This document shows, in pieces, positions 13,636-16,767 of a DNA stretch of 51,206 nt (position 1 is its first letter; each line of letters starts with the position of its first letter). The DNA comes from Chloroflexota bacterium (GTDB taxonomy: Bacteria > Chloroflexota > Limnocylindria > Limnocylindrales > CSP1-4): positions 1 through 51,206 of the forward strand of contig VBGT01000075.1 in assembly GCA_005889475.1 (NCBI GenBank), written 5' to 3'. The position numbers and the translations under genes are program-made. The notes under the pieces were generated by a model, which did not search any database, was not told the origin of the DNA, and worked only from the letters and a program-made list of their open reading frames with translations.

Positions 13636-14308
13636 GACCCTGCGCCTCGCCCATCGCGGCGACTGGCGAGCTGCCCCCGAGAACTCGCTGGCGGCGATGG
13701 AAGCCGCCCTCCGGGTGCCCGCCTGCGACGGGCTCGAGCTCGACGTCCGGGCCTCCTCGGACGGCGTCCCGATCCTGCTCCATGACGGCTCGCTCCGACG
13801 CGTCCAGAAGGTCAATGCCGTGCCCTCGGCCCTCACGGCGGACGAGTGCGCAGGCCTCGGCATCGCATCCCTCGGCCACGTGCTCCGCACGGTCGGCTGC
13901 GACCCGTTCATCGACGTCGAGTTGAAGGAGCTGGTCCCTGCCGTTATCGACGTGCTGGAGCTCGAGCGCGGCGGAACCGGCGGCGACGGACGGCCGGTCC
14001 TGCGCGCCGCCGCGGTCTCGTCCTTCGAGCGGACGGTGCTCGAGTGGCTCGCGGCCGAGCGCCCGACCTGGCCGCGCTGGCTGAACGCCCGCGACCTCTC
14101 GCCAACGACGCTCGACCTTGCCACCTCGCTGGGCTGCTCCGCGATCTCGGTCTGGTGGCGCGCGATCGGTCCGCGGCGGGTCGAGCGAGCGCGCGATGCG
14201 GGTCTCGACATCGCCGCCTGGACGATCACCGACTCCGAGGCGTACCGGCGAGTCGAGGCATTGGGTGCGATCGCGATCTGCGCCGAGGGCGCCGCCCTCG
14301 ACGGTTGA
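13628..14308 (+). CDS. Glycerophosphodiester phosphodiesterase family protein
   Basis: RLAHRGDWRAAPENSLAAMEAALR...GLELDVRASSDGVPILLHDGSLRR; 8-nt overlap with upstream gene. Confidence 0.88.
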   Translation: MAETLRLAHRGDWRAAPENSLAAMEAALRVPACDGLELDVRASSDGVPILLHDGSLRRVQKVNAVPSALTADECAGLGIASLGHVLRTVGCDPFIDVELKELVPAVIDVLELERGGTGGDGRPVLRAAAVSSFERTVLEWLAAERPTWPRWLNARDLSPTTLDLATSLGCSAISVWWRAIGPRRVERARDAGLDIAAWTITDSEAYRRVEALGAIAICAEGAALDG

Positions 14309-14331
14309 GGCCCGCGCGCGGCGCGGGCCTC
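14307..14331. terminator. Hairpin between convergent GDPD and arsM transcription units
   Basis: GAGGCCCGCGC-GCG-GCGCGGGCCTC, 11-bp perfect stem with 3-nt loop; no clear U tract. Confidence 0.5.
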
Positions 14332-14350: not shown

Positions 14351-14401
14351 TCAGCAGCCGCACGGACAGCTGGGACCGCACGGGCAGTCACAGGCCGACA
14401 T
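14351..14401 (-). CDS. Putative 16-aa Cys-rich (metallothionein-like) small protein MSACDCPCGPSCPCGC
   Basis: ATG-to-TGA ORF preceded by AAGGAGGTGA-GCTCG-ATG (full anti-SD complement), 24 nt after the arsM stop; 6 of 16 residues are Cys. Confidence 0.6.
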   Translation of the reverse strand: MSACDCPCGPSCPCGC

Positions 14402-14425
14402 CGAGCTCACCTCCTTCCGGGATCG

Positions 14426-15202
14426 TCACGCTGGCTTGGTCGCGCGGACGATTGCCGAATGCATGCCCGGGACGAGCTGATGCGTCGGCACGACCTCGAC
14501 ATCCGTCATGCCCACGGCGTTGAGCCCTGCCCGGAATTCCCGGAATGACAGGGCCCCGGCGATGCAGCCGACGTAGGAGCCACGCTCCGCCCGCTGCTGG
14601 GGGGTCAGGAGGTCGTCGGCAACGACGTCGCTGACGCCGACACGGCCGCCCGGCTTGAGGACGCGCGCCATCTCGGCGAAGACGGACGCTTTGTTCGACG
14701 CGAGGTTGATGACGCAGTTGCTGATGACGACGTCGACGCTTGCGTCATCGACCGGGAGCCGCTCGATGGTGCCCTTCCGAAACTCCACGTTCGATGCGCC
14801 GGCCTCCGTGGCGTTGCGCCGCGCCAGGGCCAGCATCTCGTCGGTCATGTCGATGCCGATCGCATGGCCGGTCGGTCCGACCCGGCGCGCAGAGAGCAGG
14901 ACATCGATGCCCCCGCCCGACCCGAGGTCGAGCACCGTCTCGCCCTCGCGCAGCTCGGCGACGGCGACGGGATTGCCACAGCCCAGCGATGCAAGCAGTG
15001 CCGCGTCCGGGATGCCCTCCCGCTCGGCCGCGTCGTACAGCTCGAGCCCGTACGTACCCGACGCGTCCGAGCAGCAACCGTCGCCGCAGGCACAGCCATC
15101 GGCGCAGCATCCCTCCGCGCGGGTGGCAGCCAGCACCGCTTCGGCGTACCGGTCGCGGACCTGCTGCTGGATCTCGTTGAGCTCGAGTGTCTGGTCGACC
15201 AT
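14426..15202 (-). CDS. arsM: Arsenite S-adenosylmethionine methyltransferase
   Basis: GETVLDLGSGGGIDVLLSARRVGPTGHAIGIDMTDEML, VISNCVINL; N-terminal Cys-rich GCCADGCACGDGCC. Confidence 0.93.
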   Translation of the reverse strand: MVDQTLELNEIQQQVRDRYAEAVLAATRAEGCCADGCACGDGCCSDASGTYGLELYDAAEREGIPDAALLASLGCGNPVAVAELREGETVLDLGSGGGIDVLLSARRVGPTGHAIGIDMTDEMLALARRNATEAGASNVEFRKGTIERLPVDDASVDVVISNCVINLASNKASVFAEMARVLKPGGRVGVSDVVADDLLTPQQRAERGSYVGCIAGALSFREFRAGLNAVGMTDVEVVPTHQLVPGMHSAIVRATKPA

Positions 15203-15252
15203 GGCTGCTCTCCTCTATGCGGCGTCGCCAAGACTCGCAGCGATATCGATTC

Positions 15253-15288
15253 TTGTCAATATCGAAATGTGTCGATATGATGCACGCC
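15253..15288 (+). promoter_or_regulatory. arsR promoter with operator palindrome in the -35/-10 spacer
   Basis: TTGTCA (15253-15258) - N17 - TATGAT (15276-15281) - N7 - ATG 15289; ATATCGA-AATGTG-TCGATAT at 15259-15278; overlapping minus-strand TTGACA for arsM. Confidence 0.75.
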
Positions 15289-15651
15289 ATGGCCAAGTCG
15301 ACGGACCCTGACGTTCTCCTGCTCGCCGCGCTCGCCGACCCGACCCGACTGGAGATCCTGCGCCAGCTCGCTGGGTCCGCGGAGGTGTGCGCCTGCGACT
15401 TCACCGATTGCTGCGGCGTCACCCAGCCGACGATCTCGCATCACCTGAAGGTGCTGCGCGACGCGGGCGTCGTCGTGTCCGAGCGGCGCGCGAGCTGGGT
15501 CTTCTACCGTGTCGCGCCCAACCTCATCGAGCGACTCGGCGGGATCGCCCAGACGCTGGTCCCCGGCGGGATCATCCCCGTCGCGGCATTGCTCAGCACC
15601 GGAGCAGCGTCGAAGTCAGGACGAGCGGTGGGTCGGCCGGCGACGGCCTGA
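15289..15651 (+). CDS. arsR: ArsR/SmtB-family transcriptional regulator
   Basis: LAALADPTRLEILRQLAGSAEVCACDFTDCCGVTQPTISHHLKVLRDAGVV; alternative ATGs at 15277 and 15280. Confidence 0.93.
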   Translation: MAKSTDPDVLLLAALADPTRLEILRQLAGSAEVCACDFTDCCGVTQPTISHHLKVLRDAGVVVSERRASWVFYRVAPNLIERLGGIAQTLVPGGIIPVAALLSTGAASKSGRAVGRPATA

Positions 15652-15664
15652 CCGAGCCGGCCGG

Positions 15665-16291
15665 TCAGTCCGGCACGGCTCCCGGCGGGATCAACCAGCG
15701 CAGCGCGCCCTCGCCGGGTGTGGCACCGGCATCGGGCAGGTCGATCCGGGCGATGGCGCCCTTGCGCAGCTCGATCGCGGCGCCGGTCAGCGTCGAGGCG
15801 ATCGCGCTGAAGTCCGGGTCGTGCCCGACCAGCAGGACGCGCCGGGCGTCCGGGTGGGCGGCGAGGATGCCCTCGAGGTCGCCGACCTCGAGGGCTGCCA
15901 CGAGGCGGCTCTCGTCGTCCGGCTTCACGTCGACGGCCTCGCCGACGATCCCTGCCGTCTGCGACGCACGGAGCTTGGGCGAGGTGAGGATGATGTCGGG
16001 TCGCCAGCCGATGCCCGCGAGCATGCTGCCGAGGCGACGCGCCTGCCGCTTGCCCTTCGCCGACAGCGGGCGGTCCGCGTCATCCCCGGGCCAGGCCATC
16101 GGATCGCCGGCGTCGGCGTGCCGGAGGAGATACAGCTGAAGCGGCTCGGGCGACTCGACGGAGTGCGCGGATGCAGTTGGATCCCCGGACGCTTTCGCGG
16201 CCTTCGCCGGCGGCTTCGCGGCGGCGTCGGCGCGCGCTCGTGACGTCCGTGACGTCCGGCGCGGGGCGGGGCGATCGCCCTGCTCGGTCAT
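15665..16291 (-). CDS. sixA: SixA-type phosphohistidine phosphatase (histidine phosphatase superfamily)
   Basis: LYLLRHADAGDP...DRPLSAKGKRQARRLGSML...VLLVGHDPDFS. Confidence 0.87.
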   Translation of the reverse strand: MTEQGDRPAPRRTSRTSRARADAAAKPPAKAAKASGDPTASAHSVESPEPLQLYLLRHADAGDPMAWPGDDADRPLSAKGKRQARRLGSMLAGIGWRPDIILTSPKLRASQTAGIVGEAVDVKPDDESRLVAALEVGDLEGILAAHPDARRVLLVGHDPDFSAIASTLTGAAIELRKGAIARIDLPDAGATPGEGALRWLIPPGAVPD

Positions 16292-16767
16292 GATCGGCGG
16301 TTCACGACGAGGGGCAGGAACGTGCGGATTCGTCCGGCGAGATCCTTGAGCGCCCGGTCGAAGGCCTGCTGGCGCTCCTCATCCGTGCCGGTTGCCTCCG
16401 CCGGGTCGTCGACGCCCCAGTGCAGGGTCACGCTCCCGCCCGGGAAGACCGGGCAGCTGGCCCGAGCCCGGTCGCATACGGTGATCACGTAGTCGAACCG
16501 CTGGCCCAGGAACTCAGCCACGGACTTCGAGCGGGCGCCCGTGATGTCGATGCCGACCTTGTCGAGCGATCGGATGGTCATCGGATGGACACCGCGCGGG
16601 CTGACCCCGGCGCTGACGACCTCGAACGCCGGGCCGCCGTCGCGCCGGAGCAGCGCCTCGGCCATCTGGCTCCGCGCCGAGTTGCCGGTGCAGACGAAGA
16701 TCACCCGGATCGGGGCCGCGGGGTCGCCGGTGCCGTCGGTGGGTACATCGACGCCCTGGACGCTCAT
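16288..16767 (-). CDS. arsC: Arsenate reductase, low-molecular-weight phosphatase family
   Basis: VIFVCTGNSARSQMAEALLRR P-loop (CTGNSARS) and VITVCDRARASCPVFPG; overlaps phoU stop and sixA start. Confidence 0.9.
   Translation of the reverse strand: MSVQGVDVPTDGTGDPAAPIRVIFVCTGNSARSQMAEALLRRDGGPAFEVVSAGVSPRGVHPMTIRSLDKVGIDITGARSKSVAEFLGQRFDYVITVCDRARASCPVFPGGSVTLHWGVDDPAEATGTDEERQQAFDRALKDLAGRIRTFLPLVVNRRS

Follow-up and report, generated by a model that had tools for sequence, protein, structure and literature searches.

Does a 16-codon reading frame behind an arsenite methyltransferase gene encode a working metal-binding peptide, or is it an accident of the DNA in which it lies? The frame is found in a 51,206-nucleotide contig of a Chloroflexota bacterium, analysed here at its full length (the window). 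The original prediction, which named no strand, described a 16-codon ORF 24 nt past the arsM stop, preceded by a full Shine-Dalgarno (SD) site and containing six Cys in a near-symmetric pattern, and this description agrees with the minus-strand reading. On the plus strand, 14351-14401 reads SAAARTAGTARAVTGRH; the minus strand gives MSACDCPCGPSCPCGC followed by a stop. The arsM stop occupies 14428-14426 and the micro-ORF ATG 14401-14399, leaving a gap of 24 nt. The Cys fall at residues 4, 6, 8, 12, 14 and 16 (C-x-C-x-C-x3-C-x-C-x-C), so that the peptide consists of 37.5% Cys arranged in two CxCxC arms, with no His. The features of the locus are collected in Table 1.

Table 1. Position and strand of the micro-ORF and the elements around it in the window.
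Feature	Position	Strand	Remarks
Cys micro-ORF	14351..14401 (reads 14401..14351)	minus	MSACDCPCGPSCPCGC then stop; 16 aa, 6 Cys
Shine-Dalgarno AAGGAGGTGA	14407..14416	minus	full site; 5-nt spacer to ATG
arsM	14426..15202	minus	NCBIfam NF008823, 294.8 bits (cut-off 263)
Perfect 11-bp hairpin past the micro-ORF, no U-tract	14307..14331	none	
arsR, ArsR/SmtB metalloregulator with CACDFTDCC	15289..15651	plus	NF033788, 92.5 bits (above cut-off)
Imperfect palindrome, arsR-arsM intergenic	15243..15278	none	
Low-molecular-weight phosphatase-type gene, arsenate reductase-like	16288..16767	minus	TIGR02691, 113 bits (below cut-off 174)

Because the ORF is very short, unannotated and missing at most arsM loci, it could be a chance frame in GC-rich intergenic DNA, a reading to which we give very little credence. 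The window has 20 SD-led ORFs 10-45 aa long; after the micro-ORF, the next richest in Cys has 8%. Among 400 order-2 Markov simulated windows, not one contained an SD-led ORF reaching both six Cys and 30% Cys. In 499 strand-kb of the window and related DNA we counted 690 loosely SD-led short ORFs, 17 of them Cys-rich and 17/17 family members; most of this DNA was chosen for containing a member, and the informative figure is the zero count of non-member Cys-rich SD-led ORFs. This absence of background in simulated and real DNA, together with a second-species orthologue whose Cys codons carry synonymous changes, refutes the chance reading as far as sequence can.

The gene upstream of the micro-ORF is, judged by its NF008823 score, a proper arsenite methyltransferase. 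In an alignment to 4kw7/4fr0, it has Cys at all three As-binding positions of CmArsM, residues 72/174/224 (PMC5552862). The window ArsM ends in ...RATKPA. Near its N terminus lies the Cys cluster already pointed out in the original prediction, GCCADGCACGDGCC (15071-15112, minus strand), which has a variable counterpart in most ArsMs examined. The arsR gene is divergent from arsM and upstream of it, and the palindrome between the two is a candidate ArsR operator; a similar motif occurs upstream of arsM in G003. Beyond arsR, besides the phosphatase-type gene, are a PhoU-like gene and Pst-like transport genes, named from our reading of the ORFs. On the 3' side of arsM the order is micro-ORF, hairpin and convergent GDPD-like gene, an arrangement shared by G012, where a different 11-bp hairpin occupies the matching place. 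The arsM unit and the GDPD-like gene probably both end at the hairpin in the window, and the micro-ORF is most likely the last gene of a predicted arsM transcript.

Another unannotated ORF, of about 70 aa, was observed between arsR and arsM in L119 (G012), L061 (G009), L062 (G011), L063 (G014), L065 (G004) and L069 (G006). Its products carry C-terminal Cys pairs (DACACPA, DACNCPA, EACACTA, IACATC, ELSACCA), and three of them gave no Pfam match; the window has no such ORF between the two genes.

The orthologue of the micro-ORF was found in genome G012, a second species of the same genus, as MTSCDCPCGPDCPCGG at the syntenic site behind arsM. Its SD and core match those of the window although the ArsMs are 72-73% identical, and it is without the last Cys. 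The recurrence of the ORF and its Cys codons at related arsM loci, on which the original prediction turned, is borne out by this orthologue and by SD-led Cys micro-ORFs at the arsM end in six further genomes. A pattern search of 60 related genomes returned one clear second member, MLLRCDCPCGPDCPCDCCC in G028, which overlaps a MerR-family gene and has CDCPCGPDCPC in common with the G012 peptide; by its sequence it is a bridging form. The MerR frame upstream of it (L089) has an apparent frameshift near the HTH, from mutation or assembly error.

Longer relatives were recovered with a CxCPCG pattern and then with a profile, bringing the CDCPCG-type core to 16 distinct loci, one of them a degenerate second copy in G113, spread over 14 of the class's genomes. 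We define the group as SD-led ORFs of up to about 45 aa with a C[DE]CxCGxxCxC-type core and an adjacent metal gene. The window peptide has the SD, the length and the core, and SDs are present at the other members too. Each adjoins, overlaps or is fused to a thiophilic-metal gene, which is arsM in the window and MerR or merA elsewhere. The typical long form is M-x-TCDCPCGxCCGCxxCxCGCxCSSHR, and twelve of them agree without exception at 10 core Cys, one Gly and one His. Pairwise differences between the long forms number 329, 296 and 704 at codon positions 1, 2 and 3 (n = 12), and both TGC and TGT occur in every Cys codon column; the Cys conservation is partly ascertained by the search, while the synonymous variation is free of that bias. 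On this evidence the micro-ORF appears to be a real, conserved and unannotated gene, and it is probably functional.

Matches to profile A2 over 399 genomes of the phylum were confined to this class. A DNA scan of GTDB r220 with C[DENK]CPCGxxC[PGAR]C, a pattern that misses cores such as CDCACG and CECTCG, found SD-led micro-ORFs in Chloroflexi records only; the remaining hits were long open frames, frames without a plausible start and unrelated planctomycete Cys-rich proteins. The planctomycete records (L125, L131, L132) encode longer Cys-/Lys-rich repeat proteins, CKCPCGKECACGPDCKCPGCTCC, metallothionein-like in appearance but seemingly unrelated. No tblastn match to a long form was found on plasmids.

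Most CDCPCG-type peptides are encoded at the 3' end of a MerR-type regulator gene, either overlapping it or joined to it in frame, and it is on such genes that the long forms sit. At eight long-form loci the MerR stop TGA arises within the TGYGA of the first Cys-Asp/Glu codons. In G029 the peptide lies behind a mercuric reductase gene (TIGR02053 above cut-off), and one peptide of G130 immediately precedes a MerA-like reductase. Equivalog scores for the metal specificity of the MerRs were all below cut-off. These thiophilic-metal neighbours (arsR, arsM, MerR-family and mercuric reductase genes) count for the reading of the micro-ORF product as a thiolate peptide. Peptide and MerR share a reading frame in G014 (L168), G127 (L169), G031 (L170) and apparently G063, with an SD and an internal ATG retained; such an internal start could yield a free peptide in addition to the tailed regulator. 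A third Cys-tailed MerR of G130 is encoded at L118:276-845 on the minus strand, its tail reading MLSCDCGCVGSGCTCGCTCCGAAGHAEH...ACDCGCCG. Just downstream of the MerR-peptide unit in L168 and L114 is a gene for a small thioredoxin-like DF-family protein (NF049942 above cut-off in L114), and L170 has a similar ORF.

To ask how the Cys module is distributed at arsM itself, we compared 107 arsM genes from the class at their 3' ends, calling a tail when at least 3 Cys occur in the last 25 residues. A Cys-rich C-terminal tail is present on ArsM at 56/107 loci (e.g. ...GCGCGSGGCC at the stop). An SD-led Cys micro-ORF follows arsM at eight loci from five genera and two families: G000 and G012 (g1); G024 (g11), with MTWNCDCGPECGPECRPDCC; G077 and G078 (g30), whose peptides end ...DCGPDCPCPCPPC and ...ECGPECPDCGPDCPCEC; and G147, G138 and G137 (g36, g34), with MSGSCCPIPVECCPEPESDQPCC and kin, where the start codon overlaps the arsM stop. 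Tail and micro-ORF avoid each other. The micro-ORF occurs beside 0/56 tailed ArsMs and 8/51 others (Fisher p = 0.002, kinship ignored); with a 2-Cys threshold the counts are 1/64 and 7/43 (p = 0.007, kinship ignored), and the G024 ArsM has a short Cys pair besides its micro-ORF. The tails resemble the micro-peptide in Cys density and in position relative to ArsM, and at the 3-Cys threshold the two are mutually exclusive. They differ in being covalently fused and in motif, usually xCCGxGGCC or xCGCGxGGCC as against CDCPCGPxCPC in the free peptide. We regard this tail-or-micro-ORF pattern, which would tie the Cys module to ArsM specifically, as our strongest functional clue.

The module is nevertheless dispensable, since 43/51 untailed ArsMs go without a micro-ORF. 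Among the 11 arsM loci of the genus whose 3' end could be read, two have one, and its absence from the majority marks it as an optional accessory. Carriers are scattered across the ArsM tree. G000 and G012 are not sisters, the sister of G012 being G014 (support 100/99), and this requires losses or repeated gain. The eight arsM-end peptides are probably not all homologous, and those of family f3 (CCP-rich) look independent.

What, then, might the peptide do? We consider it fairly likely that it is a translated 16-aa thiolate peptide, encoded at the end of the arsM transcript, that binds As(III) or a similar ion as a detachable module of ArsM. An alternative that we regard as unlikely is a general thiophilic-metal buffer riding in ars and mer operons, which would soak up cytosolic Hg, Cu, Cd, Zn or As with no specific dealings with ArsM. 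Such a buffer would suit the metallothionein-like composition, the lone PDB profile match (plant metallothionein EC protein I/II, E = 1) and the residence of the long form mostly at MerR-type regulators and mer genes. It does not lead one to expect the avoidance of tailed ArsMs, or placement this tight at the end of arsM, which extends to -1 overlaps. The location of the long form also bears on the original prediction of a micro-metallothionein that chelates or delivers As(III). Its link to arsM holds, in that the ORF and its Cys codons recur and no micro-ORF accompanies a tailed ArsM. The CDCPCG-type core, though, is commoner beside MerR-type regulators and mer genes than beside arsM, so that a role with thiophilic metals in general and one confined to arsenic are equally likely. 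Given where this sister form resides, As(III) is one candidate for the true ligand.

In a further reading, a nascent Cys peptide would sense metal on the ribosome and so control a downstream gene, as metal-sensing upstream ORFs such as CruR are known to do (PMC9426467), and some long forms do have a co-directional downstream gene (G130, G063, G014, G031). CruR is likewise a small Cys-containing ORF in a metal operon, but it heads the operon and controls the genes that follow, whereas the window micro-ORF ends one. No co-directional gene for it to control lies downstream in the window or G012; the next gene in both is convergent, with a hairpin between, so that there is nothing to regulate. With no constant gene downstream of the long forms and no Rfam element in the region, we judge a sensing leader quite improbable. 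A riboswitch or other RNA element was also considered and rejected: there was no Rfam match, and shuffled sequences fold as well as the ORF stretch does. Scarcely credible is an extension of ArsM by readthrough of its TGA, for instance as selenocysteine, with no free peptide made. In the window, micro-ORF and arsM share a frame and no second stop comes between them, and NCBIfam includes ArsM-type selenoproteins, but in G012, G024, G077 and the f3 loci the micro-ORF is in a different frame from arsM and has its own SD and start, for which reason we reject readthrough.

Searches of protein families gave the peptide no name. Four relatives of the group had no Pfam match at E<=1, a search with little power for short peptides, and the 16-mer padded with four Gly had no NCBIfam match at E<=1, again with little power at such length. 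Like the bacterial metallothioneins (SmtA/BmtA/PmtA, Pfam Metallothio_Pro; MymT), which occur in metal-response loci, the window peptide shows the general marks of a metallothionein, being small and Cys-rich with CxC. Known bacterial metallothioneins are about 50 aa or more, whereas this peptide has just 16 aa and 6 Cys and lacks His. The proposed role, in which Cys residues pass As(III) on to an enzyme of the ars operon, resembles that of the As(III) metallochaperone ArsD. ArsD differs in being a folded protein, about 120 aa long, whose partner is ArsA. The Pseudomonas/SmtA-type metallothionein carries a Cys9His-type cluster (PMC7387436). No such site is seen here, the window peptide having 6 Cys without His and the long forms 10 core Cys with one invariant His. 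Fungal copper thioneins are also very short and Cys-dense, and the 26-residue metallothionein of Neurospora crassa was once considered the shortest (PMC4755600); those proteins are eukaryotic and of known metal content, whereas the window peptide is bacterial, 16 aa long, linked to arsM and a predicted binder. In the open-licence papers searched, we found no Cys micro-ORFs with arsM or MerR.

Returning to the thiolate module of ArsM, we infer the translation of the peptide, its co-transcription with arsM, its metal binding and metal preference, and its delivery of metal to ArsM. We infer too that it works like a very small metallothionein, and we do not file it as a member of the metallothionein family. 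The micro-ORF would be the final gene of the arsM transcript, probably under ArsR control, and its product a minimal thiolate ligand made together with ArsM. Its two CxCxC arms would capture As(III) or some comparable thiophilic ion. From the chemistry of such ligands, six Cys would suit two three-coordinate AsS3 centres, or a small thiolate cluster of Cu, Zn, Cd or Hg. The peptide would then hold As(III), pass it to ArsM, or both. In relatives, the fused C-terminal Cys tail of ArsM presumably does an equal job, and the longer sister form may do the equivalent for MerR-type regulators and mer genes. It is also possible, and we put it forward tentatively, that ArsMs and MerRs across the class are served by exchangeable Cys micro-modules, fused as tails or split off into translationally coupled micro-genes, with the fused MerRs giving both products.

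If the proposed role is correct, this peptide would be among the smallest genetically encoded metal-binding peptides, below the fungal metallothionein, and of a size that ORF length cut-offs tend to conceal. Arsenic methylation would gain an accessory factor of which the literature searched makes no mention, and a purpose would be suggested for the Cys-rich tail on many ArsMs. The exchange of tail and micro-gene would be a rare, very small case of fusion and fission pointing to function. For the class as a whole, a previously unannotated group of tiny, probably metal-grabbing Cys peptides appears to accompany the arsenic and mercury resistance genes.
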